IMG/VR virus record: IMGVR_UViG_3300010430_006906
Span: 1-46,512 of that record
Length of the DNA: 46,512 nt
Source: a virus
Direction: 5' to 3' (one strand)
Below the pieces are notes generated by a model, which was not told where the DNA came from, ran no database searches, and saw only the letters and a list, made by a program, of their open reading frames with translations. The position numbers were made by a program, and so were the translations under genes. Of this stretch, positions 1 to 46,512 are shown piece by piece; within the stretch, counting starts at the first letter, position 1; each line of letters opens with the position of its first letter.

Positions 1-1185
1 TCACTCCCGCTGCCCCCTCACCATCCCGACGACGCGGGCCACCGCGCCGCGGCGCTCCTCAAGGGTCACCGCAGAGTAGCGCTCGCCGATCGCCTCGTCC
101 GCGTGGCCGATGAGCGCCTGGCGGACGATCTCGGAGGCGTTCTGCCGGATGAGGTTGTTCCAGGTGTGCCGGAGCATGTGCACCGCCGGCCGCCCGTCGA
201 GCTCGATCCCCGCGGCGTCGCACACGCGCAGGATGGCCTTGCGCGCGTACACGTTCGCCACGTACGTGGCGCCGCGGCGCCTCGAGGGGATCACGAGCGG
301 CGAGTCGCACCCGGTCTGCTGGTGAGCGACCAGCGCGCGCCGGTGCTCGCGCAGAACCTCGATGAGCTCGTCGGGGATCACGACGGTGCGCCGCGACGCT
401 CGAGCCTTCACGTGGCCGACGATCCCGCGCCACTGCGCCCGGCGGACCCGGATGGTGCCGGCCTCGAGGTCGACGTCTCCCCATTCGAGCGCGCTCGCCT
501 CGCCGAAGCGCAGACCCGTCCAGGCCATCGTGGCGACGAGCGCCCAGACGCGGCGCCACGGCTTGGTGACCTCGCCGCGCTGGGTCACACCGAGGCGAGG
601 CCCGGCGGCGAGGAAGCGCCGCAGCTCCTCGATCGACAGCCCGCGCCCCTCGTCCTCGAGGCGCTCGTCCTCGCGCACGTCGCGGCGAACACCGACGCCG
701 GCGACGATGCACGCGACGCGCTCCTCGCGGGCAAAGGTCCGGAGCACGCGCAGCCGGCAATCGAGCGTGCTGCTGGCGTCGCCGCCCTCGCGGCCGCCGG
801 CGAGTGCCTCGCGCACGTCGTGCGGCTCGAGCTCCGCGAGTAGGTAGTCGCCGAGGACCGCCGTCCACCAGGAGACGGCCGAGGCGTAGGTCGACGCCGT
901 GCTCGGCTTGATCGTCAGCCGCTTCTCAGCGAGCCAGCCGGCCAGCGCCTCACCGAGTCTTGCCGGTCCCGCCTCCACCACGCGCCGCCCGCGCTCGCGC
1001 AGCCAAGCGGCGCGCTCGAGCGCGCGGTGTTTCGCGGCGCTGGCCGGGCTGTCGGCCTCGATCCGTCGATCGATCTCGTGCTCTCGGCCCGTCTTCGGGT
1101 GCCGCACCTTCGCCCGGATCCGGTACACGCCGTCGCCCAGCGGCGTCACCCCCGGGTAGCGCCTCTTCGCTCGCCTCTTCGCCAT
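1..1185 (-). CDS. int: Tyrosine recombinase (prophage integrase)
   Basis: Site-specific recombinase expected to insert and excise the prophage at a tRNA-Gly attachment site. The N-terminus carries the AP2-like arm-binding motif (RYPGV...YRIRAKV). A SAM-like core-binding domain follows, then a catalytic domain with Arg in TGLRFGEAS, the HMLRHTWNN box (HxxR), His in LIGHAD and the nucleophile Tyr in GERYSAV, so the active site looks complete. I chose the ATG at 1185 because a GGAGGG ribosome site precedes it closely; the frame stays open to 1251. The stop codon is the first bases of the window, so the attachment site lies just outside. Length (394 residues) is normal for the family. Confidence 0.93.
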   Translation of the reverse strand: MAKRRAKRRYPGVTPLGDGVYRIRAKVRHPKTGREHEIDRRIEADSPASAAKHRALERAAWLRERGRRVVEAGPARLGEALAGWLAEKRLTIKPSTASTYASAVSWWTAVLGDYLLAELEPHDVREALAGGREGGDASSTLDCRLRVLRTFAREERVACIVAGVGVRRDVREDERLEDEGRGLSIEELRRFLAAGPRLGVTQRGEVTKPWRRVWALVATMAWTGLRFGEASALEWGDVDLEAGTIRVRRAQWRGIVGHVKARASRRTVVIPDELIEVLREHRRALVAHQQTGCDSPLVIPSRRRGATYVANVYARKAILRVCDAAGIELDGRPAVHMLRHTWNNLIRQNASEIVRQALIGHADEAIGERYSAVTLEERRGAVARVVGMVRGQRE

Positions 1186-1387
1186 CTGCCCTCCGTCGGA
1201 TCCACGCGTCGACGTCGGCCGCGCGGAACAGCAGCACGCCCCTCGCCCCATGACCGTACACCTGCGGACCTCGTCCCCGGCGCACGAGCTTGGTCACCGC
1301 GCCCCGGGTGCAGCGCAGGATCGCGGCAACCTCGGAGGTGTCGAGGAGCTGGGGGAGCGCGCTGCGGTCCTCGGCGAGCTCGCCCAT
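950..1387 (-). CDS. Excisionase-like helix-turn-helix protein
   Basis: A small DNA-binding protein probably acting as recombination directionality factor. Residues about 14-65 form an AlpA/MerR-type winged HTH (LLDTSEVAAILRCTRGAVTK ending in the usual LLFRAADVDAWI). The ATG overlaps the stop of the upstream gene (TGATG). The open frame runs 236 bases into the integrase gene in another frame, giving an Arg-rich tail with no recognisable domain. Only the first 75 or so residues look meaningful. The degraded integrase at the right end of the window has the same HTH-then-int arrangement in the same relative frame, which supports the pairing. Confidence 0.7.
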   Translation of the reverse strand: MGELAEDRSALPQLLDTSEVAAILRCTRGAVTKLVRRGRGPQVYGHGARGVLLFRAADVDAWIRRRADGEEASEEALPGGDAAGRRRVPDPGEGAAPEDGPRARDRSTDRGRQPGQRRETPRARARRLAARARAARGGGGTGKTR

Positions 1388-1662: not shown

Positions 1663-1973
1663 CGATCCTCCCGCCAACGCAGCATGACGCGTGCGACCGC
1701 GCGCAGGTCGACCTCCGAAAGCGCCTGCACCCCCTCGTGCTCGAATCTGGGGATGACGCGCGCCATGCGCGCCACATCCTCAGGGCGGATGCTCCGGATG
1801 AGGGCCGCGGACAGCGGTCCCCGGGACACGAGCTCGACGATCGCCTCCTGCATCAGCAGCGCGCCGGCGTGCGCGTCTGCGCACGAGGTGCAGAGGTCGC
1901 GATCCGCGTCGACCCACGCGCAGCCCTCATCACAGGCGTCGAGCTCCGTGCAGCCGCAGACCCGGCAGATCAT
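1650..1973 (-). CDS. Small zinc-ribbon protein (ICRVCGCTE type)
   Basis: A protein of 107 residues with an N-terminal zinc cluster, MICRVCGCTELDAC followed by GCAWVD and LCTSCA. This widespread phage motif is often found beside DNA-metabolism genes. The rest is a helical segment without recognised family. The ATG overlaps the stop of the ParB-like gene (ATGA), so it was taken as the start. The function is unknown; zinc binding by at least four of the Cys is inferred from spacing. Confidence 0.65.
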   Translation of the reverse strand: MICRVCGCTELDACDEGCAWVDADRDLCTSCADAHAGALLMQEAIVELVSRGPLSAALIRSIRPEDVARMARVIPRFEHEGVQALSEVDLRAVARVMLRWREDRCRS

Positions 1974-3775
1974 GACGACGCCTTCTTCTTCGGCGCCTTC
2001 TTCTTCGGTGCCTTCGGCGCCTTCTTCTTCGGTGCCTTCGGCGCCTTCATCTTCGACGGCTTCTTCTTCGACGCCCTCGACGCCTTCCGCGCTTCCCGCC
2101 TGTGATGCGCGACGTCGACCCCGTAGTGCTTGAGAACCTGGCGCGGGCCAGCCTTCGCGGCGAGCGGGTCGCGGTGCGCGGCTTGAGCGAACGCTGGCGC
2201 GAGTACGAGCTCGACGAGCAACGCGAGGAGCTCGCCGCGGTCCATCGGCTTGGCGAGCTTGGTGATCCGGGAGGTGGAGTCGAAGAAGTACGCGGGGACC
2301 TTCTGCCCGCGGCTGTTCAGGACCCACCCGACCGCCGACGTCGAGGAGTGCTGAACGGCGACGCGCACGAGCGCGCGCAGCACCTCCGCGTCAAGCTCGC
2401 CCGGGCCGTCCGCGATCGCGCTGCGGAGCGTGGCAGCGCACCGCCGAATGACCTCCTCGTCGCGCTTCGCCTTCTCGCGGCGTTTGCGCTCGCGCTCGGC
2501 GTGCTCGCGCCTCCTCTCCTCGTAGTCGCCGCTGATGTCCTCGAGCGTGCCGTTGCTCGACCGCGCGCGACGCGCTTCGCGCACGCGCGCCGCACTCTCG
2601 GCGCTGTTGGGGTAGCGGTCCTGCACACGAGACCATGCGAGCTCCTCGTCGAGCGCCTCGACGAGCTCTCCCTTGGGCGTGCAGATGACCGTGAGGTCCT
2701 CGACGGCAAGCTCGCCGACGATCTCGCGCCACGTGGGCACCTCCGGCTCATCGGGATCGAGGTCCTGGTAGACCTCGGCCGGCTCGTCGAGCGTGACCAA
2801 TCCGCTGTCGTGCCGGACTTCGCATCCCCAGGCGATCACGCTCTTGGCCGCGTCGCCCTCGAGCACCGTCGCGCCAGCGGCCTCGAGCTCCGCCCTCCGG
2901 GCCGTCCACCAGCCATCGACCTTGGCCTCCCAGCACGCGCCGTCGAGGCACAGGTCCTCGCCGTCGGCGTCGCCGAATAGCTCGGCCTGCGCAGCGGTGC
3001 GGCGCGGGCAGCTCGCACACGCTCCGGCGTTGGGCACGAGCTGCGCGTCGGCCAGGTCCCAGGGCGCCTCGGCGAGCACACGGCACGCCCGCTTGATCGC
3101 GGCGCGAACATGCTGGCCGCTGGCGACGCCGGGCATCCAGTGTCCGTATTCGTCGCCTTCGAAGCCGTCGGGCCAGTTCTCGACCCGGGGCCAGCGCAGG
3201 GCCGGGCCCATGTGCTCGACCGCCTGGCGCTGCGGGGCGGCGTCCAGCTGCGCGAGCGCCAGCGCGCCCGTGAGGGTGAGCAGGCCGTGCTCGAGCAGCA
3301 TCCGGCCCTCGGGTCCCAGTCGCTGCAGCCGAAGACGCGCCCGAACGTAGCTCTCCGAGCGGCCGAGCTTGGCCGCGATCGCGGCCACGTCCCGACCGCG
3401 CTCGAGCAGCGCCTCGTACGCGTCCGACTCCTCGAGCGGTGCCACGTCCGCGCGCTGGCTGTTCTCGGCGACCATCGCCTCGAGCGCAGCGACGTCGTCG
3501 AGGTCGTAGCGGACGCGCACCGGCACGGTCTTGGCGCCGGCGATGGTCGCAGCGCGCAGGCGGCGAGCTCCGCAGATCACCTCGTATCCGCCGGGCAGCT
3601 CGCGCCCGTTGACCAGGCGCAGCGGCCGCACGAGCAGCGTCTGTAGAATCCCGTCGGCTGCGATCGAGTCGGCGAGGTCTTTGAGCGCGTCCTCGTCGAA
3701 GGTGCGCCGAGGGTTCAGCTCGCTCTCGGTGAGCTGGCCGATCGGGACGTCCAGAGTCTTCGGCTTCTTCGCCAC
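1970..3775 (-). CDS. ParB/RepB/Spo0J-like protein with lysine/alanine-rich tail
   Basis: A 601-residue protein with a GTG start. The N-terminal ParB domain is clear: the GARRLRAATIAGA segment corresponds to the ParB GERRxRA box, and ENSQRADVAPLEESDAYEAL to box II. The HTH DVAAIAAKLGRSESYVRARL follows at about residue 130-150. The middle has several Cys (ACASCP, CLDGACWEAK). The last 35 residues repeat KAPKKKAPKAP, like histone H1, encoded by tandem 24-27 bp DNA repeats near 1980-2070. No ParA ATPase is present anywhere in the window, so plasmid-type partition is unlikely. A chromatin-like or regulatory role on phage DNA is possible. Similar ParB-domain proteins occur in early operons of other high-GC phages. 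Confidence 0.82.
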   Translation of the reverse strand: MAKKPKTLDVPIGQLTESELNPRRTFDEDALKDLADSIAADGILQTLLVRPLRLVNGRELPGGYEVICGARRLRAATIAGAKTVPVRVRYDLDDVAALEAMVAENSQRADVAPLEESDAYEALLERGRDVAAIAAKLGRSESYVRARLRLQRLGPEGRMLLEHGLLTLTGALALAQLDAAPQRQAVEHMGPALRWPRVENWPDGFEGDEYGHWMPGVASGQHVRAAIKRACRVLAEAPWDLADAQLVPNAGACASCPRRTAAQAELFGDADGEDLCLDGACWEAKVDGWWTARRAELEAAGATVLEGDAAKSVIAWGCEVRHDSGLVTLDEPAEVYQDLDPDEPEVPTWREIVGELAVEDLTVICTPKGELVEALDEELAWSRVQDRYPNSAESAARVREARRARSSNGTLEDISGDYEERRREHAERERKRREKAKRDEEVIRRCAATLRSAIADGPGELDAEVLRALVRVAVQHSSTSAVGWVLNSRGQKVPAYFFDSTSRITKLAKPMDRGELLALLVELVLAPAFAQAAHRDPLAAKAGPRQVLKHYGVDVAHHRREARKASRASKKKPSKMKAPKAPKKKAPKAPKKKAPKKKASS

Positions 3776-4005: not shown

Positions 4006-4256
4006 GCGCTCCTCGCGTTCTCAGGGTTCTTGGGGTGCTCGGCCCACTTGCGCGCGTGCGCCGGGCAGAGGTGCTTGTCGGGTGCCGGCGAGCTCGCGCA
4101 GCGGAGGCACAGCCCGCGGCTGCAGGTGCGGCCCTGCCTCTTGCCGCGCAGCTTCCAGTCGCACAGGACCTCGCAGCGGCCGCCGCACTCGGTGCACGTG
4201 CGGCGGCGCTCGCGGGTGCAGACGATGCCGAATCCCGGGATGCCGTGGCAGGGCAT
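4002..4256 (-). CDS. Cys-rich zinc-cluster protein
   Basis: An 84-residue basic protein with about ten Cys, arranged as CTECGGRCEVLC, then TCSRGLCLRC and a final LCPAH. This suggests two or more structural zinc sites. The ATG overlaps the SbcC-like stop (TGATG) and its own stop overlaps the next start, so expression is tied to the recombination genes. The sequence does not match a family I can name; nucleic-acid or protein binding is inferred from composition. Confidence 0.6.
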   Translation of the reverse strand: MPCHGIPGFGIVCTRERRRTCTECGGRCEVLCDWKLRGKRQGRTCSRGLCLRCASSPAPDKHLCPAHARKWAEHPKNPENARSA

Positions 4257-6697
4257 CAGGCCTCCACCTCGACCGCTCCGCCGGCGACGCGCAGCCGGCT
4301 GTCGCACAGCTCGAGCACCTCGGGCGAGTGGCTGACCAGGAGCACGCGCTCGGCTCCGATGTGCGCGGCTGCGCGGCGCAGCATCGCGACGTAGCGCCGC
4401 GCGTTGTCCGGGCTGAGCGCTGCGCCGCTCTCGTCCCGGATCAACGTAAGCCCCTCGAGGTCGCCGCGGCGGCAGGCGAGCTGCGTGAGCGCGAGCGAGA
4501 CCGCCTCGCCGAGCAGCACGCACTCGCCGCCCGAGTACGTCTCCGCGCCCGCCTCGCGCCCGGCGACGGTGTCGAGCACGCGGACTTCGAGCCCCTCGAG
4601 CTGGCGCTTGCCGTCGGCGCTCCTGCGCGTGGTCTCGATCGAGACCGTCCAGCGGGTCGACACGCACTGGTGCAGGAGGTCGTTGATGCTCGCCGTCAGC
4701 TCCGGCCCGGCCGCGTCGATCTCGAGCGCCTGCAGCCCGTCGCGGCCGAGGTCGTTGCCCAGGCGCGTCCACACCGCTTGGCGGCGCTCGAGGCGCACAT
4801 CCGACGCGTGGAGTTCGGTGCGCCGCGCGGCCAGTAGCTGGGCGCGCTGCAGACGCTGCTCGAGCGTGGTCACGGCCGCGTGCGCAACACGGGTGCTTCG
4901 CTCCTCGGCGTCGGCCGCGGCCGCGGCGTCGGAGACGAGCGTCCCGATCGCCGGCGGGGTCTCGGGCAGCGGCGCCGCGGCGAGCGCCTCGTCGGCCGCC
5001 GCCCGACGCTCGCGCGCGTCGCGCAGCTGCGGCTCGATCTCCTCGAGGCGCGCGCGGGCGCCACCGAGGGCGGTGAGGTCTCGATCGAGCGTGGCGAACC
5101 GCTGCCGCTCCTGCTCGCGCAGCACGCGGTGCTGGGCGACGCTCGTCTGCAGCGCGTCGCCGGCGTCGGCCGCGGCCGCGCGCGCCTGCTGCAGCACCCG
5201 CGCGGCGTCGAGCTCGCCCGCGGCCGCCTCGTCGACGGCGACCCGCGCCCGGTCTAGCTCCGCCTGAGCGGTCTCGAGGTCCACGCGTCGCGCGGCGAGC
5301 TGCTCGAGCCGCCCGAGCTTGCCCTGCGCGTCCCGCAGGCCGGATGCGAGCTCCTCGATCTGCGACTCGAGCTCGGCTGCGCGCCCGGGCGCCTGCTCGG
5401 CGAGCTGGGCGCGACCGTCATCCTCCTCGAGGACCCGCCGCCCGGTGGCTCGTGCATCCTGTACGGTCTCGGCCTCGGTCACGTCGACGAGGCCGTCGCG
5501 CAGCGCGTCCACGCGATCGCGAGCGCCGCGCAGCTGCACACGGTGCAGGGCCTCGAGCTCGGCGCGCGCGCCGCGCAGCTGCTCCTCGGCCAGCTCTGCG
5601 TCGTAGCGCGCTGGGCCGAGCAGGTAGCCCGCCTCGCGCACCTGCTCGCCGGCGGCGACACGGCGCTCGAGGTCCTCGACCCGCGCACCTGCCTCATCCG
5701 CGGCGCCGTTCGCGGCCGCGGCCGCCTCCGACGCGCGCGCCAGGTCCGCCTTCGCGAGCTCGTGCGCGGTGCGCTGTTCCGCACCCGTCGCCTGCACCGC
5801 GTCGAGGTCGGCGCGCAGCGCGTCGCGCTCCTCCTCGAGGAGGCGCAGTACGTCCTCGCGCGCGAGGACCGCGCGGGTGGCCGCCTCGCGCCGCTCGAGG
5901 TCCTCGACCGCCGCCGTCGCCCGCGCCAGTCGTTCGGCCAGCTCACTCCGGCGCGCGACGCGCTGCTCGGCGTCGGCGCGCATCCGCTCGGTGGCGGCCG
6001 CCGTCGCCCGCGCCTGCTCGAGCGCCTCGCGCGCTGCGGCCAGACGCTCGTCGGCGCCGACGGCGGCCTGGCGCGCCGCGGCGAGCTCGGCGTCCAGGTC
6101 CTCGACGGACGCGGGCTCATCCAGATCGGACAAGCGCGCACGCACGACGGCCAGCTCCTCGCCGGTACTGCGGCCCCGCGCCCGAGCGCGCTCGGCGAGT
6201 AGCTCGAGGTGCTCGATCCCCAGCGCGCGTAGCAGCACCGCCTTGCGCGCCGCCGGCCGCATCCCGAGGAACCCGCGCGCGCCCTGCACCGCGAACATGG
6301 CCGACTGCAGGACCTCGGCGGGTGGCAGGTGCGCGGCGGCCCACGCATCGAACTCGCGCAGCTTCGTCGACGACAGCAGCGGCCCGCCGCCCTCGTCGAC
6401 CACGACGGCCTCCGCCTTGCCGCTGACCGCGTCGACGAGGTGGCGGATGGTGTAGGTCGCCCCGTACGTCCACGTCGCCTCGAGGACCGCGTCCCGCCGC
6501 GTCGCGAGCTGGGCCAGCGAGCCGCGCGTGGGGCAGCTGCGGTACAGCGCGCCGGGCCCGGCGAGCTCGAGCAGCGTGGTCTTGCCGGATCCGTTGTCCC
6601 CGCAGACGCCGACCAGCGGCCCGGGCACGTCGTCGAGGTCGAGCTCGACGTGGCCCAGGGGACCCATGCCCTGAACGATCAGGCGATCGAGACGCAC
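4256..6697 (-). CDS. sbcC-like: SbcC/Rad50-like SMC-type ATPase
   Basis: Expected ATPase subunit of an Mre11-Rad50-type nuclease complex that processes DNA ends and hairpins. It has 813 residues: Walker A GDNGSGKT at 33-40, a long Ala/Arg/Glu-rich coiled coil through about residue 660, then the ABC signature YSGGE near 725, Walker B LTLIRDE near 750 and an H-loop in LLVSHSPE. The GTG start at 6697 overlaps the upstream TAG. I see no CxxC zinc hook in the coiled coil, so dimerisation at the apex must differ from classical Rad50. The protein is shorter than bacterial SbcC (about 1000 or more). The partner nuclease is one gene upstream, as in phage T4 gp46/gp47. Confidence 0.88.
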   Translation of the reverse strand: MRLDRLIVQGMGPLGHVELDLDDVPGPLVGVCGDNGSGKTTLLELAGPGALYRSCPTRGSLAQLATRRDAVLEATWTYGATYTIRHLVDAVSGKAEAVVVDEGGGPLLSSTKLREFDAWAAAHLPPAEVLQSAMFAVQGARGFLGMRPAARKAVLLRALGIEHLELLAERARARGRSTGEELAVVRARLSDLDEPASVEDLDAELAAARQAAVGADERLAAAREALEQARATAAATERMRADAEQRVARRSELAERLARATAAVEDLERREAATRAVLAREDVLRLLEEERDALRADLDAVQATGAEQRTAHELAKADLARASEAAAAANGAADEAGARVEDLERRVAAGEQVREAGYLLGPARYDAELAEEQLRGARAELEALHRVQLRGARDRVDALRDGLVDVTEAETVQDARATGRRVLEEDDGRAQLAEQAPGRAAELESQIEELASGLRDAQGKLGRLEQLAARRVDLETAQAELDRARVAVDEAAAGELDAARVLQQARAAAADAGDALQTSVAQHRVLREQERQRFATLDRDLTALGGARARLEEIEPQLRDARERRAAADEALAAAPLPETPPAIGTLVSDAAAAADAEERSTRVAHAAVTTLEQRLQRAQLLAARRTELHASDVRLERRQAVWTRLGNDLGRDGLQALEIDAAGPELTASINDLLHQCVSTRWTVSIETTRRSADGKRQLEGLEVRVLDTVAGREAGAETYSGGECVLLGEAVSLALTQLACRRGDLEGLTLIRDESGAALSPDNARRYVAMLRRAAAHIGAERVLLVSHSPEVLELCDSRLRVAGGAVEVEA

Positions 6698-7014
6698 TAG
6701 GCCCCCTGCCCCGTGAACGGGAGGCCGCCGAAGTCGAACGCTGGCACGCCGTCGATGGACAGCGGTCCTTGGAACAACCCGTACGCCGCCCAGTCGCAGC
6801 CGAGCGTCGGGACGTAGCGACCGAGGCACTCCTGCTCGACCCGGAAGTCGCCCTCGCGCAGCCGCGGCAAGTGCTCCCCGAACTCCGACCGGACCCGCTC
6901 GATCGACATCTCCCGCTTGCAGGCCGGGCACGCGAAGCGCCAAGTCGCCTGGTCGGCGCCGAAGAGGTCGCGGCCCTTGCTCTCCCACTCCTCCCGGCTG
7001 ACCTCACGCGGCAT
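6697..7014 (-). CDS. Small Cys-containing protein between sbcC- and sbcD-like genes
   Basis: A 105-residue protein with RDLFGADQATWRFACPACKR near residues 16-35 and further Cys in QECLGRY and LGCDWAAYGLF. This layout resembles small phage proteins annotated as the VVA0879 family, from memory only. CPAC plus the two later Cys could hold one zinc. It sits exactly between the ATPase and the nuclease genes and overlaps both, so it may be an accessory factor of that complex. This is inference from position. Confidence 0.6.
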   Translation of the reverse strand: MPREVSREEWESKGRDLFGADQATWRFACPACKREMSIERVRSEFGEHLPRLREGDFRVEQECLGRYVPTLGCDWAAYGLFQGPLSIDGVPAFDFGGLPFTGQGA

Positions 7015-8209
7015 CGCGCACCTCCACCTCGAGCTCGCCCAGGCCCGCGAGCAGCTCGCCGGCGTAGGTCTCGTCCGGCTCGTCGGCGCGGGCGCGCCAC
7101 AGCGCCTGCAGCTTGTCGGCGAGCGTCGCGGCCGCGCCGACCTCCGGGGCCCGGGCCCGCGTCTTGGCGATCACCCGCTGCTCGAGCTCGACGCGCACGG
7201 CGCCGGCGGCGAGCCAGCTCTGGCGGTAGTCCTCCGCGAGTTCGCGCGCGCGACCGCGTACGTCTGCGGGCGTCTCGTAGCGCAGGCGGATCTCCGCGCC
7301 CGCCGGAGCCACGTCGTCGGTCGCATCGACCGCGAGCGAGATGCCGTCCTCGCCGACGGCTACGTGGCCCTCGAGCAGGAGCATCGGCGCACACGGCGTC
7401 GACACGCGCTGCCAGCGCACCGACAGCAACTCCTCGACGCGAGCGTCGTCGGAGATCTCCAGAACCGCGTAGCCCTTGTCCTCGATCTCCCCGAACGCGG
7501 TGCGGCGCGGCGAGCCGGGATACAGCACGGAGGTGCCGAGATCGCCGCCGGTCGTGCCACCCTCCCATGGCTCCCATGCCTGGGCCATGTGCACGTGCCC
7601 CAGGCAGACGACGTCGGCGCAGGCGAGCTCGAGGGCGCCGAGCCCCAGCTCGAAGTCGCAGCCGACCAGCGGCTGACCCGTGGAGACCCGCGAGCCCCGC
7701 ACCATCGCGTGCGCCAGCAGAATCCGCGGTCCGTCGTGACGGGCGAGCTCGAGCCCCAGCCCTCGGAGCACGTGCTCGAGCGCGGCCGCGGCGCCCTCCT
7801 CGAGGAGCGCGCGGCTGTCGACCCGCAAGAACTGCGCGAGGCTCGCGCGCGACGGCCAGGCCAGGCACGCCACGGCGACGCCGGCGACGACGTGCACGGC
7901 TGCCGCTTCCTCGACGACGATCGGGTGGCGCGTCCGGAGGCGTTCGAAGATCGAGAGGTCACGCGGCGCATCGTGGTTGCCTCGCACCATCACGACCGGC
8001 GCGAGCTCGGCCACGTCGCGCAGCCAGTCGGCGACCTGGGCGCGCTCGAGCGGCGTCGACTTGCGCTCGAAGACGTCGCCGGCGTGCAGCACCAGGTCGA
8101 CGCCACGCTCGCGCAGGTCCTGGGCGATCCAGTTGTGGATCTGCACGCACTCCTCGAGCCGGCTGGACTGATCGAAGTGCGAGTCGGCGATGAGGGCGAC
8201 GCGCGTCAT
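7004..8209 (-). CDS. sbcD-like: SbcD/Mre11-like metallophosphoesterase
   Basis: Expected nuclease subunit working with the SbcC-like ATPase on DNA ends. The five calcineurin-type motifs are present in order: Asp9 and His11 in ADSHFD, GDVF at 44-47, GNHD at 77-80, His in LLAHAMV near 170 and GHVH near 205. Two divalent metals are expected in the active site. A capping region with ordinary composition follows to residue 401, the usual length for SbcD. The start overlaps the next stop upstream by four bases. It sits with zinc proteins and a possible annealing protein, suggesting recombination-dependent replication or repair of phage DNA. Confidence 0.9.
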   Translation of the reverse strand: MTRVALIADSHFDQSSRLEECVQIHNWIAQDLRERGVDLVLHAGDVFERKSTPLERAQVADWLRDVAELAPVVMVRGNHDAPRDLSIFERLRTRHPIVVEEAAAVHVVAGVAVACLAWPSRASLAQFLRVDSRALLEEGAAAALEHVLRGLGLELARHDGPRILLAHAMVRGSRVSTGQPLVGCDFELGLGALELACADVVCLGHVHMAQAWEPWEGGTTGGDLGTSVLYPGSPRRTAFGEIEDKGYAVLEISDDARVEELLSVRWQRVSTPCAPMLLLEGHVAVGEDGISLAVDATDDVAPAGAEIRLRYETPADVRGRARELAEDYRQSWLAAGAVRVELEQRVIAKTRARAPEVGAAATLADKLQALWRARADEPDETYAGELLAGLGELEVEVRDAA

Positions 8210-25093: not shown

Positions 25094-25951
25094 ATGCCCA
25101 GCGTTCAGACCACCCAGCGCCTCGAGGAGCGCATCGGCCGCCACGGCGCCGCGTTCGACTCCTCGGTCCGCTCGCACAGCCGCATCGCCGACGCCGCGAT
25201 GCGCCCGGGTGACGTCGCGATCCGCGCCGCGGAGGCGTCCGAAGGCGACCTCGAGGCCACGCCGCTCACCGCGCCGGCCGCGGCCGACGCCGATGCCATC
25301 GTCGACGCCGCGCCCACCGCGGCGGGCGCGCAGGAGCTCACGGGCGCCGCGCTCGACGGGGTGATCGGCGCCGAGCCGATGATCCCCGCCCGCAACCTGA
25401 CCGTGGATACCAACAGCCACGCGGACTGGGACGACACCGACATCACGATCGAGGGCGAGGATCCCGAGGGCAACGTGATCAGCGAGGTCTTCGAGGTGTC
25501 CGACGGCGGCGGCGACTCGCTGACCGGCAGCCTGCTGTTCCGCCGGGTGACCAAGGTCAGCGTCCCCGCGCAGTCGGGCACGAGTGGCGTGCTCGACGTC
25601 GGCACCGGCACCGACCTCGGCGAGCTCAGCAGCCGCGACGTCGCCGGGCTCGTGCGCTACCTCGCCGCGCGCGAGGTCGCCGACGTCGACACCGCCGAGT
25701 ACGCGGCCGGCGAGACGCTCAACATCGTGCACCGCGGCCCGGTCTGGCTCGAGGTCGAAGAGGACGTCGCCGACGGCGAGCGCGTCTTCGTCCGCCTGGT
25801 CACGTCGGGCGCCGAGGTCCTCGGCGGCTTCCGCCGCAGCGCCGACGGCAGCGCCGGCGCGCCCGACGCCGTCCCGATCAAGGGCTGGCGGTTCCGTGGC
25901 GCGAGCATCGATCGCGACAGCGTCAAGCTCGCCATCGTCGACATCCCCTGA
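25094..25951 (+). CDS. Capsid cement/decoration protein with inserted domain
   Basis: A 285-residue protein. The N-terminus (QTTQRLEERIGRHGAAFDSS) and C-terminus (PIKGWRFRGASIDRDSVKLA) fit the gp24-type structural cement proteins found between protease and capsid genes. Residues about 61-175 are an extra beta-rich domain (AQELTGAALDGVIG... NLTVDTNSHADWD...) that also occurs inside the tail sheath of this phage. Forty-six bases (25328-25373) are identical to 29333-29378. A good AGGAG site precedes the ATG. Cement proteins stabilise the expanded shell; the inserted domain may project from the surface. Confidence 0.72.
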   Translation: MPSVQTTQRLEERIGRHGAAFDSSVRSHSRIADAAMRPGDVAIRAAEASEGDLEATPLTAPAAADADAIVDAAPTAAGAQELTGAALDGVIGAEPMIPARNLTVDTNSHADWDDTDITIEGEDPEGNVISEVFEVSDGGGDSLTGSLLFRRVTKVSVPAQSGTSGVLDVGTGTDLGELSSRDVAGLVRYLAAREVADVDTAEYAAGETLNIVHRGPVWLEVEEDVADGERVFVRLVTSGAEVLGGFRRSADGSAGAPDAVPIKGWRFRGASIDRDSVKLAIVDIP

Positions 25952-28311: not shown

Positions 28312-28880
28312 CGTGGGCGACGTGGCAGACCGAGCTCGTCTCGCTGTTCGCCGACCTGTCGGAGATTCCGTTCGACTGGGCCGCCCAGCCGCGCGGGATG
28401 CACGTCGGCTCGCGCGGGCAGGTCGACCTGATCGGCCTGGCCGAGATCGGCACGCCGGACCTGCGCCACCTCGAGGACGGCGCCGACCCGAACGTCCGGA
28501 TCGAGAAGCGGATCGGGCAGCGGCGGCTGACGCTGCAGCTCGACGTGTGGAGCCCGCGCCAGGCGCTCGAGCACTCCGCCCGCGCGGTGATCGAGCGGAT
28601 CCGCTCGCGGCTGTACTTCGCGTCGACGTCGGCCCGGCTGCTCGCGCTGCACCTCGGCCTGATCCGGCTGACCGATCCGCTGCGCCTCGACCCGATCGAG
28701 GACGCGCGCACGGTGTCCCGCTGGTCGATGGACGCCCTCTTCTCCCTCGCGTGGGAGGAGACCGACGGCGAGCACCCGGGCACGTGGATCGATTCGGTCG
28801 AGGTGAGCTCGGCGTCGCTGCGTGACCCCGGCGGCGACCCGCTGCCCGCCCCCCTCCAGACCACACAGGTGATTCCGTGA
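28308..28880 (+). CDS. Neck/tail terminator-like protein
   Basis: A 190-residue protein beginning MTWATWQTELVSLFADLSEI. It has PNVRIEKRIGQRRLTLQLDV followed by WSPRQ, and later a helical region (EHSARAVIERIRSRLYFAST). This fits the terminator protein that caps myovirus tails (the LIC_12616 or gp12-like group, recalled from memory). Its stop overlaps the sheath start. Confidence 0.65.
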   Translation: MTWATWQTELVSLFADLSEIPFDWAAQPRGMHVGSRGQVDLIGLAEIGTPDLRHLEDGADPNVRIEKRIGQRRLTLQLDVWSPRQALEHSARAVIERIRSRLYFASTSARLLALHLGLIRLTDPLRLDPIEDARTVSRWSMDALFSLAWEETDGEHPGTWIDSVEVSSASLRDPGGDPLPAPLQTTQVIP

Positions 28881-30547
28881 CCGTCGAATCCGTCGTCGAT
28901 GTCCAGATCTCGGCCGAGACTCGGTTCCCCACGAGGGCCGGCTTCGGGACGATGCTCGTGCTCGGCTACCACACCGCGTGGCTCGAGCGCGTGCGCGTCT
29001 ACGAGGAGCTCGACGCGCTGGCCGACGACGGGATCACCGAGAACGATCCGCAGACCGGGAAGATCTACGCCGCGGTCCGTGCGGCGTTCTCGCAGAACCC
29101 CCGGCCGCGGCAGATCAAGGTGGGGCGGCGCGTGGGCGCACCCGACCAGTCGATCCGCCTGACGCCGACCAGCGTCGAGGAGGGCTGGACGTACTCCTTC
29201 TCGGTCGGCGGCGTGCCCTTCGCGTACACCGCGCAGGCCGGCGACGCGGTGGGCGACGTCACGGCCGCGCTCGAGGCGCTCATGGCGGCCGACGACGACG
29301 CCATCGTGGCAGCGGCGGCGACGGCCGCGGCCGCGCAGGAGCTCACGGGCGCCGCGCTCGACGGGGTGATCGGCGCCGCCGCGATCGCGCCGCCGCGCAA
29401 CCTCACCGTCAACACGGACGCGCACGCGGACTGGGACGCGACGACGATCGTGATCGAGGGCCTGGCCCCGAGCGGGCGCGCGATCAGCGAGAGCTTCGAC
29501 GTCAGCGACGGCGGCGACGACGCCCTCGCTGGGACGAAGACGTTCGCGAAGGTCACGAAGGTCACGGTCGCCGCGCAGAGCGGCGCCGGCGGCTCGCTCG
29601 ACATCGGGGTCGGGACGGTGTTCGCCAACGCCGACCTGGACGTCACCGGCACCGACGGGTCGACGCACCTCGACGTGGCGGCGAACGTCAGCGGCGAGTG
29701 GTTCGCGTTCGGCGGCTTCGACGCGCGGATGCTCGTGGAGGACCGCACGGCCGAGCCGGCGACGGCGCTGTCGACCGACCTCGACGCGATCCTCGAGGAG
29801 GATCCCGACTTCTATGGCGTGATCGGCGCCGACGCGCAGAGTCAGGCGCAGATCACGGCGGTGGCGGCCTGGACCGAGGCGCACCCCAACCCGGGCAAGC
29901 TCTACCTCGCGCACTCGATCGACAGCGACGTCGGCACGGCGGCCGACGACGATGTCGCCACCAGCCTCCTCGAGGCGACGTACTTCCGCAGCCACGTGCA
30001 CTACCAGCGCAACGCCCACGGGACGTTCCCGGACGCCGCCTGGATGGCCTCGCTGTTCCCCTTCGATCCGGGCAGCGCGACGTGGGACTTCAAGGAGCTG
30101 TCGGGCGTGCCGATCGACGCGCCGAGCGCGACGGTGCGCACCAACCTCAAGACGAAGAACGCGTCGTACTACGTGCGGATCAAGGGCCGGAACGTGACGC
30201 GGCACAGCAAGACGGCGGCGGGCGAGTGGCTCGACGTGGTGCGCTTCGTCGACTGGACGAAGGACCAGATCGCGACCGACGTCTTCGACCAGGTCAGCGG
30301 CAGCCCCAAGACGCCGTACACCCAGGGCGGGATCGATTCGGTCGGCGGGCGCGTGCGCCAGGTGGGCCGCCGCGGCGTCGCCGCCGGCGGCCTCGACCCG
30401 AACCAGGAGCTCACGGTGATCGTGCCGGTGCTGTCGGAGATCGACCCGTCCGAGATCGCCGAGCGGAACCTGCCCGGCGTGACCTTCGACTGGAGGATCG
30501 CCGGCGCGATCCACGCGGTCTCGATCCGCGGAAACGTCAGCGTCTAA
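28877..30547 (+). CDS. Contractile tail sheath (DUF3383-like) with inserted domain
   Basis: The sheath, 556 residues, GTG start overlapping the previous stop. The N-terminus (VVDVQISAETRFPTRAGFGT, then YEELDALADDGI) and the C-terminal half (FYGVIGADAQSQAQITAVAA, DVFDQVSGSPKTPYTQGGID) fit DUF3383 sheaths. At about residues 135-250 the domain AQELTGAALDGVIG... NLTVNTDAHADWD... SFDVSDGGDD interrupts the usual small beta domain after VTAALEALM. The same domain is in the cement protein, with identical DNA over 46 bases. It is likely to be displayed outside the sheath tube. Confidence 0.85.
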   Translation: MTVESVVDVQISAETRFPTRAGFGTMLVLGYHTAWLERVRVYEELDALADDGITENDPQTGKIYAAVRAAFSQNPRPRQIKVGRRVGAPDQSIRLTPTSVEEGWTYSFSVGGVPFAYTAQAGDAVGDVTAALEALMAADDDAIVAAAATAAAAQELTGAALDGVIGAAAIAPPRNLTVNTDAHADWDATTIVIEGLAPSGRAISESFDVSDGGDDALAGTKTFAKVTKVTVAAQSGAGGSLDIGVGTVFANADLDVTGTDGSTHLDVAANVSGEWFAFGGFDARMLVEDRTAEPATALSTDLDAILEEDPDFYGVIGADAQSQAQITAVAAWTEAHPNPGKLYLAHSIDSDVGTAADDDVATSLLEATYFRSHVHYQRNAHGTFPDAAWMASLFPFDPGSATWDFKELSGVPIDAPSATVRTNLKTKNASYYVRIKGRNVTRHSKTAAGEWLDVVRFVDWTKDQIATDVFDQVSGSPKTPYTQGGIDSVGGRVRQVGRRGVAAGGLDPNQELTVIVPVLSEIDPSEIAERNLPGVTFDWRIAGAIHAVSIRGNVSV

Positions 30548-38678: not shown

Positions 38679-40622
38679 ATGGGACTGACCACGCTGCCGA
38701 CGAAGACGGCCGACTCGCTCGGGATCGACGTGACCGATCGCCCGAGGCCGTTCGAGCGCGACCCCCGCTACTCGAAGTCGGCGGCCGAGCACAACCGGCT
38801 GATCGAATACGTGATCGCGCTCGCGCTGGACGTCGGCCTCGAGGACGGCAGCACGCCGGGCTCGATCCGCGAGGCGCTGGCAGCCGCAGGCGTGCTGGGA
38901 GGGATCGACGCCAAGCCCGCCGTGCGAGTCGCGACCACCGAGGCGATCACGCTCGCGAGCGAGCTCGAGGCCGGCGACACCATCGACGGCGTCGTGTTGC
39001 TCGAGGGCGATCGAGTCCTCGCAAAGGACCAGGACGGCGGCGGGGCCGAGAACGGGATCTACGTGGTCGCCGCCGCGGGCCCGCCCGCCCGCGCTGCGGA
39101 CCTCCCCGTCGACGCGGCCGCCGCGAGCGCGTGGGTGTGGATCAACGAAGGCTCGCAGGCCGACCAGCTCTGGCGGTGCACGAACGACCGGGGATCGGAC
39201 GTCGTGGGCACCGACGGCCTGGCGTTCGAGAAGTTCCCCGGGTGTTGCGACTCGTTCGGCACCGGAACGGCGAACCAGCTCGAGCTCAAGCCCAACGAGA
39301 CTCAGTCGCTGACCCTCGACGCGACGGGCGCCGACCCCGCGCTCGTCGGCCACGCGCCGAACACCTGGGTGCTCGGCCTCAACAGCGCCCCGTTGAAGTC
39401 GCTGCGCGTCGCCGGCGGGACGTTGGCGAACCCGTCCATGCGCCCGCGCGACGGGCACGGCGTCTACTCCGACGCGCTGAACACGGTGGGGCTCGCGGCC
39501 AACGGTCGGTCGCTCGTCGTCGACCAAACGAACGCGGCGGTAGCCGGCGACTCGGACAACGTGCTGTCGAGCGGCCGCGACGCGGTGCGGTGGACCGGGG
39601 TGTTCACCCGAGGTCTCGACGTCGGCACACCCGGCACGCCGGCGCTTGTGGTCACCAGCGCCGGCGTGCTTCGGACCATCGCCGCCGGCACCCCCAACGC
39701 TCCGGCGGTGGCGGTGCGCGACGAGACGCACGGCATGTTGTCGCCCGCGCTGAACCAGACCGCGCTGACGGCCAACGGCGAGGAGGTCATCTGGGACGCG
39801 ACCACGGGCACGCCCGCACTGCTGCCGCCGAACACGGGCGGGGCCGACTTCGGGACGGCGAGCATTCGTTGGGGGACGATCTTCGCCAACATCCTCAGCG
39901 CCTCGACCAGCGCCGCCATCGGTACGGGTGGCCTCTCGGTCCAGGGCAACGTGTCGGTCCTGAACAACGGCAACCTGACGGTCGAGGGCAAGTTCATCTG
40001 GCCGCGACCCTGGGACGCGAAGGCGGGCACCACCTACACGATGGAGCCCGTGACCGACAAGGGCGACAAGATCGCTTGGAACAACGCGAGCGACGTCACC
40101 ATCACCTGCGACCAGGCCGCGTCGGGGGTGCAGAACGGTGTGCGGGTCGAGTTGTTCAACGAGGGTACCGGCCGACTGATCTTCACCCCGGGGACGGCCA
40201 GCGTGCGCGTGCCGCCTGGCTTCCAGGCGATGAGCAAGGGCCAATACTCGAAGGTCTACGCCGACTACCGATCGAACAGCGAGGTCTGGCTGTCGGGCGA
40301 CCTCATGCCCGGCGGCACGCGCGACCTCGGCACCTCCACGTTCAGCCTCGACGACGCCGACGCGAACCGCCCGTGTCAGTGGCGCGGGACGTCCACGGGC
40401 GTCAACGGCACCGTCGACCAGGGCGTGGCCGGCCAGCAGGTCTCCGTCTCGCTCCGGGGCGTCGGCGGCTCGGTCACCTTCGTCGCGGGATCGGGCGTGA
40501 CCCTGCTCGAAGAAGAGGGCAAGACCACCACGACCAACGTCGTCAGCTCGGGCAAGAGCGTCAACGTCTCGCTCGTGTGGATCACCGGCACCATCGTCGC
40601 CCTCACCGGGGGGCTCGCGTGA
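38679..40622 (+). CDS. Tail fibre protein
   Basis: A 647-residue protein. The N-terminal 120 residues carry the widespread fibre motif VRVATTEAITLASELEAGDT followed by IDGVVLLEGDRVLAKDQ and ENGIYVVAAAGPPARAADLP. A long repetitive beta region with Asn, Thr and Gly-rich turns follows (AVAVRDETHGMLSPALNQTA), then a C-terminal domain with VWITGTIVALTGGLA. There is no obvious Ser/Lys peptidase chaperone. Likely to touch the host receptor or carry the lectin-type tip encoded next. Confidence 0.8.
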   Translation: MGLTTLPTKTADSLGIDVTDRPRPFERDPRYSKSAAEHNRLIEYVIALALDVGLEDGSTPGSIREALAAAGVLGGIDAKPAVRVATTEAITLASELEAGDTIDGVVLLEGDRVLAKDQDGGGAENGIYVVAAAGPPARAADLPVDAAAASAWVWINEGSQADQLWRCTNDRGSDVVGTDGLAFEKFPGCCDSFGTGTANQLELKPNETQSLTLDATGADPALVGHAPNTWVLGLNSAPLKSLRVAGGTLANPSMRPRDGHGVYSDALNTVGLAANGRSLVVDQTNAAVAGDSDNVLSSGRDAVRWTGVFTRGLDVGTPGTPALVVTSAGVLRTIAAGTPNAPAVAVRDETHGMLSPALNQTALTANGEEVIWDATTGTPALLPPNTGGADFGTASIRWGTIFANILSASTSAAIGTGGLSVQGNVSVLNNGNLTVEGKFIWPRPWDAKAGTTYTMEPVTDKGDKIAWNNASDVTITCDQAASGVQNGVRVELFNEGTGRLIFTPGTASVRVPPGFQAMSKGQYSKVYADYRSNSEVWLSGDLMPGGTRDLGTSTFSLDDADANRPCQWRGTSTGVNGTVDQGVAGQQVSVSLRGVGGSVTFVAGSGVTLLEEEGKTTTTNVVSSGKSVNVSLVWITGTIVALTGGLA

Positions 40623-45090: not shown

Positions 45091-45113
45091 TCGATCCCCA
45101 CTTCGATCCCCAC
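45091..45113. repeat. Direct repeat near the attachment site
   Basis: Two exact copies of TCGATCCCCAC, 12 bases apart (45091-45101 and 45103-45113), about 105 bases from the tRNA-derived core. Tandem short repeats flanking a core are typical arm-type integrase sites, so this is a candidate arm site. Only two copies are seen. Confidence 0.35.
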
Positions 45114-45218
45114 CTACGTCTCCCCGAACGTCGTCTCAGCTCGCCGATCGGCCCCCTTGTCGCCGCGGCGAAGCCCAGAATCGCCTAGGTTTTGGACCTA
45201 CACGCTGGAGAGAGTTCG

Positions 45219-45261
45219 CTTCCCAAGCTGAATGTCGACGGTTCGAGCCCGTTCACCCGCT
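45219..45261 (+). other. attR: Prophage right attachment core: 3' half of tRNA-Gly(CCC)
   Basis: The sequence folds as the 3' part of a tRNA. The anticodon loop TTCCCAA is at 45220-45226 with anticodon CCC at 45222-45224. The 3' anticodon stem is GCTGA, the variable loop is five bases and the T stem GACGG...CCGTT carries TTCGAGC as loop. The 3' acceptor strand CACCCGC at 45254-45260 is followed by discriminator T at 45261. The sequence before it does not continue as a tRNA (TTCGC cannot complete the stem). This is the duplicated tRNA end left by integration; the complete gene is expected just left of base 1. Confidence 0.8.
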
Positions 45262-45280
45262 ACCGTCAAGCACCGTGATC

Positions 45281-45313
45281 GCGGCCGGTTGGGGCGACGC
45301 CCGAGCCGGCCGC
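45281..45313. terminator. Perfect 8-bp hairpin downstream of the tRNA end
   Basis: Arms GCGGCCGG (45281-45288) and CCGGCCGC (45306-45313) are perfectly complementary, with a smaller GGGC/GCCC stem inside the loop. It lies 20 bases after the tRNA 3' end and could have ended transcription of the original tRNA gene, or that of the integrase remnant. Confidence 0.45.
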
Positions 45314-45347
45314 TTCGCGTTGGGGGCCCTCGGTGTCACACGGCCTG

Positions 45348-46280
45348 TCACATCGGGCTGATGGGCGTCACGCCCGCCGCCAGACACGCGCGCCGCAGCG
45401 GCGTGAGCCGGCTCGACGGCTGCATCAGCCCGCCCGAGCGAGACGGGAACACCCACCCGCCTCCAGCCCCGGCGCCTGTCGCTGCAGGAGTGCACGGCGG
45501 TGCACCTCGAGCACCGCCTTCAGCTCCGGCACCAGCGGCACCTCCTTGATGTCGTCGGTCTTCGTCGAATCACCGTGTCCACGCACGTGGGCGCGCTCGA
45601 TCCGGATCACGCGTTCGTCGTCGATGTCGAACCACCGCAGCGCGGCGACCTCACCCCAGCGCGCGCCGGTGAGCGCGAGCGTGAGCGCGATCGGATGCCA
45701 TTGCGGAGCGTCCTGCCGGAGCTGCTCAAGCACCCGCCCCAGGTCGGCGGGCTCGAGCCCCTTCGGCTTGTTGGTTCGGCGACCCGCCCGCACCGAGCGA
45801 AGGCGAGACGCCGGATCGTGCCGCTGGCGCTCGTGCATCACGTCGGCGAAGAGCGTCTTGAGCGCGCGCAAGCGGCTGTTGATGGTGGCCGGCCGACCCA
45901 CCTGCGCATCGCGCCACGCGACGAGGTCCGCCGTCGTGGTCGCGTCGAGGTAGTAGTCGCCCAGCGCGGGGAGCACGTGCAGATCGAGCACGTCCGCGTA
46001 GTGCCTACGGGTGCTCGCCTTCAGCTCGGCGAGCTTCCAGCGAGCCACGAGTGAGCGACATCCCGGAGCCGCTCGCGGCTCGCGGGCGCGTCGCCTCCCC
46101 GCTCGATTGCGACGCGAAGGTCGGCGCGCATCCGTGCCGCGTCTGCCGCGGTGGCCGCCTCCACGTCCCTCCTCTTCCTCTTTCGCTTCCCCGTCTTCGG
46201 GCACCACCCCGTCGCATCGAGGCGGTACCTCCCGGCGGAGAGCGGTAGACCCCGGGGTACTTCGTCTTCTTCATACGCAT
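45348..46280 (-). pseudogene. Degraded tyrosine integrase of an older element
   Basis: Integrase sequence is spread over three frames. The N-terminal motif KKTKYPGVYRSPPG is near 46240-46280. It is followed in another frame by RYRLDATGWCPKTGKRKRKR up to about 46050, then in the third frame by KASTRRHYADVLDLHVLPAL to TGARWGEVAALRW and EVPLVPELKAVLEVHRRAL. Back in the first frame it ends with GWVFPSRSGGLMQPSSRLTP and a stop at 45348. Three frameshifts and loss of the HxxR, His and Tyr catalytic segments make it inactive. Strand and orientation toward the tRNA match the intact integrase at 1-1185. Confidence 0.8.
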
Positions 46281-46512
46281 CTCCTTCACCCCGGAGCGCT
46301 GCGTGCTTGGCCCCAACGTACCGCAGCGCGCGAGCCTCGAGGAAGCGGTCGAGGGTCGCCCGGCGGAAGAGCACGCAGCGCCGCCCTCCCCGGCCGTCGG
46401 GGGCGAGCTCGCCGCGGTACACCGCGGAGCGCACGCCTTGCGGGGACATGCGAAGGAGCGCGGCGGCCTGGGTGACGTCGAGCCAGTCGGTGGGGTGCGG
46501 GGTGGCCAGCAC
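46021..46512 (-). CDS. HTH (excisionase-like) protein of the older element, start may lie outside
   Basis: Residues about 9-58 form a winged HTH: LDVTQAAALLRMSPQGVRSA then CVLFRRATLDRFLEARAL. This is the same class as the HTH gene next to the intact integrase. The reading frame begins with a GTG at the window edge, so the true start may be outside. After about residue 65 it runs into the integrase remnant and by a frameshift carries part of its sequence. The first 65 residues are the meaningful part. Confidence 0.6.
   Translation of the reverse strand: MLATPHPTDWLDVTQAAALLRMSPQGVRSAVYRGELAPDGRGGRRCVLFRRATLDRFLEARALRYVGAKHAALRGEGDAYEEDEVPRGLPLSAGRYRLDATGWCPKTGKRKRKRRDVEAATAADAARMRADLRVAIERGGDAPASRERLRDVAHSWLAGSSPS

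Follow-up and report, generated by a model that had tools for sequence, protein, structure and literature searches.

Features at the two ends of the record

The window analysed here, a stretch of 46,512 nucleotides, is the complete IMG/VR record IMGVR_UViG_3300010430_006906, and its body is that of a contractile-tailed phage, with terminase, portal, protease, major head protein, tail sheath and tape measure genes. Base 1 is the stop codon of a minus-strand integrase gene and position 46512 the start codon, a GTG, of a minus-strand HTH gene; such codon-edge ends fit the pattern expected from provirus trimming. Near the right end lies the 3' half of a tRNA-Gly(CCC), followed by a second, decayed integrase with its own HTH gene (Table 1).

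Table 1. Integrase cassettes, tRNA half and paired repeats of the window
Feature	Position	Strand	Match or proposed role
Intact tyrosine integrase of the putative present prophage	1..1185	-	PF00589 E 2.8e-15; phrog_1 E 5.7e-47
HTH_17/excisionase-like gene upstream of the intact integrase	1146..1387	-	HTH_17 E 1.1e-10; phrog_66 E 5.8e-8
Paired repeat TCGATCCCCAC x2, period 12	45091..45113	+	putative arm site of the left integrase, phage side
3' half of tRNA-Gly(CCC)	45218..45261	+	presumed attR core of the prophage, also serving the older element as attachment core
Paired repeat TGTCACA x2, period 12	45334..45352	+	putative arm site of the older element; role presumed
Decayed integrase	45354..46280	-	tblastn with the left integrase E 1e-16; PHROG integrase family phrog_1 E 9.4e-32
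HTH_17/excisionase-like gene of the decayed cassette	46282..46512	-	HTH_17 E 3.1e-10; phrog_66 E 2.9e-5

Each of the two integrases has an HTH_17 gene with an excisionase-family match upstream. On the left, the integrase starts with MAKRRAK at 1185, within a frame that is open up to 1251, and its start is overlapped by the HTH_17 gene, whose coordinates are those of the piece tested and whose open frame continues. On the right, the integrase is broken by three frameshifts (near 46241, 46040 and 45465) and its similarity stops near 45354, the C-terminal part with HxxR and the catalytic Tyr being missing. The original prediction of an inactivated integrase and an HTH partner beyond the tRNA half is thus borne out. 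The old and the left integrase are 31% identical over 209 residues, both belonging to phrog_1, which is one broad family. In an integrase tree, they are found in no well supported group, either with each other or with users of tRNA-Gly, and this tree is uninformative on a common target. A search of viral contigs found no relative of the remnant integrase.

Elsewhere in the window, the structural protein encoded at 25094-25951 and the tail sheath (28877-30547) have in common a 94-residue domain of 65% identity, which may be a surface domain that was copied from one virion protein to another. In the early region, genes for a ParB_N protein (1970-3775), which ends in a short tandem-repeat tail, an AAA_23 protein (4256-6988) and a calcineurin-like phosphoesterase (7004-8209) are adjacent; we take the last two to be SbcC/SbcD-like. 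A terminator scan found none.

The tRNA half (GCTTCCCAAGCTGAATGTCGACGGTTCGAGCCCGTTCACCCGCT, GCTTCCC...CCCGCT) is unique in the window at up to 3 mismatches, and a match was present in 0 of 100 shuffles. At the same tolerance, 248 genomes from a single class of Planctomycetota contain 20 sites matching its 43-mer, spread over 17 of the genomes. As 17 of the 20 sites receive a tRNA-Gly(CCC) call from ARAGORN (L006, L047 and L048 are without a call), the window sequence is the 3' half of that gene. It is broken at the anticodon loop; the window holds no whole tRNA, and the Rfam tRNA score of the half, 14.5 bits, is under the cut-off of 29, as a half would give. The RNA fold of the half alone is not better than that of shuffles. 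The exact 43-mer was found in one further viral contig and in one genome contig, the Planctomycetota MAG contig L003 (JAFMML010000114.1) being the only one among the scanned genome contigs. The sequence of L003 stops at the crossover edge CAGCTTCCC (4656-4701), as would happen if some members of the population had the site occupied.

The genomes G222, G280 and G566 contain both a whole and a half copy, with common blocks of 47, 46 and 50 nt, respectively. These blocks begin at the edge of the anticodon loop, identical to the start of the window half. The whole and the half tRNA of G222 share a contig at a separation of 31.9 kb, and an integrase lies next to the whole one. Given this crossover edge common to whole/half pairs, the tRNA half can be relied on to mark where an element ends. 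The window carries, at the end away from the intact integrase, a displaced 3' tDNA fragment that reaches the tRNA 3' end, and the tRNA-Gly(CCC) half originally predicted at the right end is confirmed.

The target tRNA and the relatives of the left integrase

tRNA-Gly(CCC) is a target common to several unrelated integrases. A looser pattern of the tRNA half matched 13 viral contigs, 4 with a whole tRNA and 9 with a lone half, this last count including L063, whose ARAGORN call of 72 nt was read as a half; the call in L040 was likewise read as a half. In 7 of the 9 lone-half contigs, an integrase is encoded about 20-870 bp downstream of the half; these integrases belong to several unrelated lineages. 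In Planctomycetota, one integrase type is found beside the tRNA in both G280 and G566, and another in G222 and G339.

Close relatives of the left integrase were reached via the tRNA pattern and then by alignment. Searching 392 Planctomycetota genomes with this integrase gave distant matches only (139 genomes with a match at E 0.001, best identity 36%), the 201 genomes searched from the order to which G358 belongs gave no match at E 1e-8, and a viral-contig search with the integrase alone gave only a relative of 26% identity. The two close relatives are L069 (IMGVR_UViG_3300032212_000064, of which 21,155 of 39,060 bases were examined), with 75% identity, and G754 (IMGVR_UViG_3300045947_000141, also listed as L054), with 62%. 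Both are unintegrated phage DNA with a tRNA half. The final 127 bases of G754 are identical to its initial 127, so that it reads as circular; its integrase is at the left edge and its tRNA half at 39714-39756. Between this half and the integrase lie, in that order, QueD-like and QueC genes (12582-14401 in L054). In L069, one gene starts over the integrase stop codon, and the tRNA half, with 39 of 44 bases alike, is found further on. The half is thus separated from the integrase gene by 0.67 kb in L069 and by 1.69 kb in G754. Among the 45 predicted ORFs of the window, the only ones matching G754 at E 1e-8 are the two integrase sequences. A tblastx comparison of G754 with the window gave GC-rich noise and was set aside.

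As both close relatives carry the tRNA half, this integrase lineage goes with tRNA-Gly(CCC), with an attP 0.67-1.69 kb from the integrase gene and cargo between them. These distances do not support the original prediction that the decayed integrase lies at the same distance from the tRNA end as the left one does. Directly behind the integrase stop codon, the slot holds different genes in each relative. The first base of G754 is, like that of the window, part of the integrase stop codon, and its 127-base overlap begins there; two records starting at the stop codon of related integrases hint at variable DNA directly behind this gene.

The integrase located beside the tRNA half had been considered as near-proof of stacking. 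This argument was dropped, because the attP regions of the free phages G754 and L069 look just like such a stack, and the case for stacking now rests on the repeats. The same relatives indeed suggest another explanation, in which the window would be a free circular phage cut between its integrase and the next gene, with the tRNA half as attP, the decayed cassette as cargo and no second chromosomal element. Both relatives are ordered in this way (core, cargo on the integrase strand, integrase), with QueC/QueD or another gene in the slot between attP and integrase and with cargo that starts at or over the integrase stop codon. Joining the window ends would likewise give a stop codon followed by a GTG and, since the window and the circular G754 have the same starting codon, the window could be circular too. 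However, the terminal stop and start are also explained by trimming at gene borders, and the window shows no end overlap, with no direct repeats linking its two ends. The motif of the intact integrase is missing right of the core, where another pair is found instead (see below), so that we consider a free phage improbable.

Paired repeats on the two sides of the core

Putative pairs of arm-type sites are described as flanking attP cores inside a tRNA gene in the available part of PMC10865867. In the family of the left integrase, the paired motif consists of TCGATCCCC-type repeats. L069 and G754 both carry the paired repeat CCCCGGCTCGATCCCCGGC on the cargo side, at about +114 to +117 from the core start in L069 and +104 in G754. 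On the phage side, each of them has a similar pair at -123. The window carries TCGATCCCCACTTCGATCCCCAC on its phage side from -128 of the core start, in register with the corresponding pairs of these two relatives. On its right side, no copy of the left-integrase paired motif was found between +100 and +130; TGTCACACGGCCTGTCACA, which differs from the left pair, is present at +115.

The repeats were compared among 10 lone-half records with both flanks, namely nine viral contigs and L069; L064 and L065, whose whole tRNA lies within long tRNA arrays, were excluded. Repeats of period 11-12 are found on both sides in five of the ten: L054 (G754), L059, L061, L063 and L069. In all five, which represent three integrase families, the motif is identical left and right. 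L058 has a left pair only, and L002, L055, L056 and L057 have no pairs. The longest word common to both flanks was compared with 500 shuffles per record: none reached it for L059 or L063, 5 did for L069 and 24 for L061; for G754, 157 did, which taken alone is not beyond chance. The flanks of the window have only a 6-mer in common, and 418 of 500 shuffles reached it.

The TGTCACA pair was found after the fact, and the window contains 35 independent 7-mer repeats of period 12, this pair included; by our own estimate, the chance of such a repeat in a 30-base target is about 2%. Among 12 intact tRNA loci of Planctomycetota that lack an integrase, one also has a right-side repeat. At the window junction, the left pair fits the left integrase family and the right pair differs, its role as an arm being putative. 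In an attP, to judge from the two relatives, the pairs left and right of the core would be alike, and this is not what the window contains. The window is comparable to the lambda-like attP described in the available part of PMC10865867 in its putative pairs of arm sites around an attP core inside a tRNA gene, but its pairs differ on the two sides, as the junction of two elements would give. As the motif is the same left and right in an attP, and a simple attR would have one arm followed by host DNA, the mixed pairs of the window fit a prophage beside an older element.

A further possibility is that the prophage integrated in this way, and that the remnant past attR is an unrelated chromosomal resident with another site, placed there by chance. 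The record holds no second tRNA end, and no close relative of known target was found for the old integrase, both of which are compatible with such a neighbour. Nevertheless, the 3' end of the decayed integrase faces the core from only about 90 bp, as at several tRNA-Gly(CCC) sites, and the period-12 pair at +115 adjoins the core. Chance proximity therefore seems very unlikely to us.

Probable stacking on one tRNA-Gly(CCC) site and comparable systems

The best-supported explanation, to which we give a probability of roughly 0.78, is that two elements are stacked on one tRNA-Gly(CCC) site. The window would be an integrated prophage cut from a longer contig. Its left-end tyrosine integrase would have recombined the phage attP, with its tRNA-Gly(CCC) 3' half, and the host tRNA-Gly(CCC) at the anticodon loop. 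This event would have restored a complete tRNA beyond the left end of the record, leaving the displaced 3' half as attR. The DNA just past attR would be the tRNA-proximal end of an older element, an earlier user of the same tRNA, which would comprise its own arm repeats and an HTH-integrase cassette that later decayed. The core would thus be common to both elements, with the arm of the new phage on one side and that of the old element on the other. The two elements originally predicted on one tRNA are in agreement with the tRNA half serving as attP in the relatives and with the unlike repeats on the two sides; the argument from distance that accompanied them finds no support.

Several points nevertheless weigh against stacking or against details of it. 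Neither a whole tRNA nor a further tRNA end lies within the record. According to the part of its description available (PMC11324519), geNomad moves the border of a provirus out to a tRNA that lies within 5 kb, and the record stops at the integrase despite this extension, if geNomad cut this record. The whole tRNA would be expected up to about 2 kb to the left of base 1, because the relatives carry cargo between integrase and core. Finally, the older element is placed first because of its decay alone, and a second element inserting at the half would yield an identical junction.

Accretion of elements at one tRNA is already described. In the available part of the Islander report (PMC4383910), island ends are defined by a tDNA and its displaced fragment, the anticodon loop is among the listed crossover subsites, and the tables give 3919 islands and 125 tandems with at least two members. 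The window contains what such islands do, namely an internal tyrosine integrase, a displaced tDNA fragment and a lineage using this tRNA (2 of the 2 close relatives found), and also, as in a tandem array, a second integrase (decayed cassette 45354-46512) beside the tDNA fragment of the first element. In the Islander tandems, as far as the same part of the report goes, an element ends likewise in a tDNA fragment and every member carries a fragment and an integrase of its own; in the window, unlike these tandems, the second integrase is broken, and the whole tDNA and second fragment would be outside the record. The accretion of AICEs at a Streptomyces tRNA-Arg, as presented in the available part of PMC9513070, similarly involves successive elements, different integrases and a decayed older remnant, but these are conjugative elements in sequenced strains with both flanks, whereas the window would be a prophage from a virus record. 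The Dehalococcoides ssrA islands, in the portion available of PMC3146451, are also tandem islands at one RNA gene, some of them without an integration module; they differ from the window in their tmRNA target and their serine recombinases.

Given these precedents, the mixed-arm junction is the useful point. In the accessible portions of the literature on arm-type sites and tandem integration, a left/right arm mismatch used as a mark of stacking was not found, and we do not claim that it is unpublished. If true, this mark would be readable even in virus records without either flank, where comparing the left and right arm repeats might separate a true stacked junction from an attP followed by cargo. 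This distinction decides whether genes near the tRNA end should be assigned to the phage or to the element next to it, and so affects provirus borders and cargo lists. A broader proposal, which we regard as rather doubtful, is that unlike left and right pairs around a tRNA core could mark stacks from sequence alone, that a scan for them would reveal many hidden stacks, and that in some of these the younger phage might co-excise the older element.

Two minor observations concern other tRNA-Gly(CCC) halves. The short viral contig L061 has integrases on both sides of its half (1-1185 and 2144-2977), and is possibly another stack. In L053 (335-1747; G280), L046 (1486-2913; G566) and L069 (11158-11982), integrase or cargo frames cross the antisense strand of the half, giving terminal peptides such as AGDRTRTGDIQLGK; these tails are the tRNA read backwards, and no protein domains.
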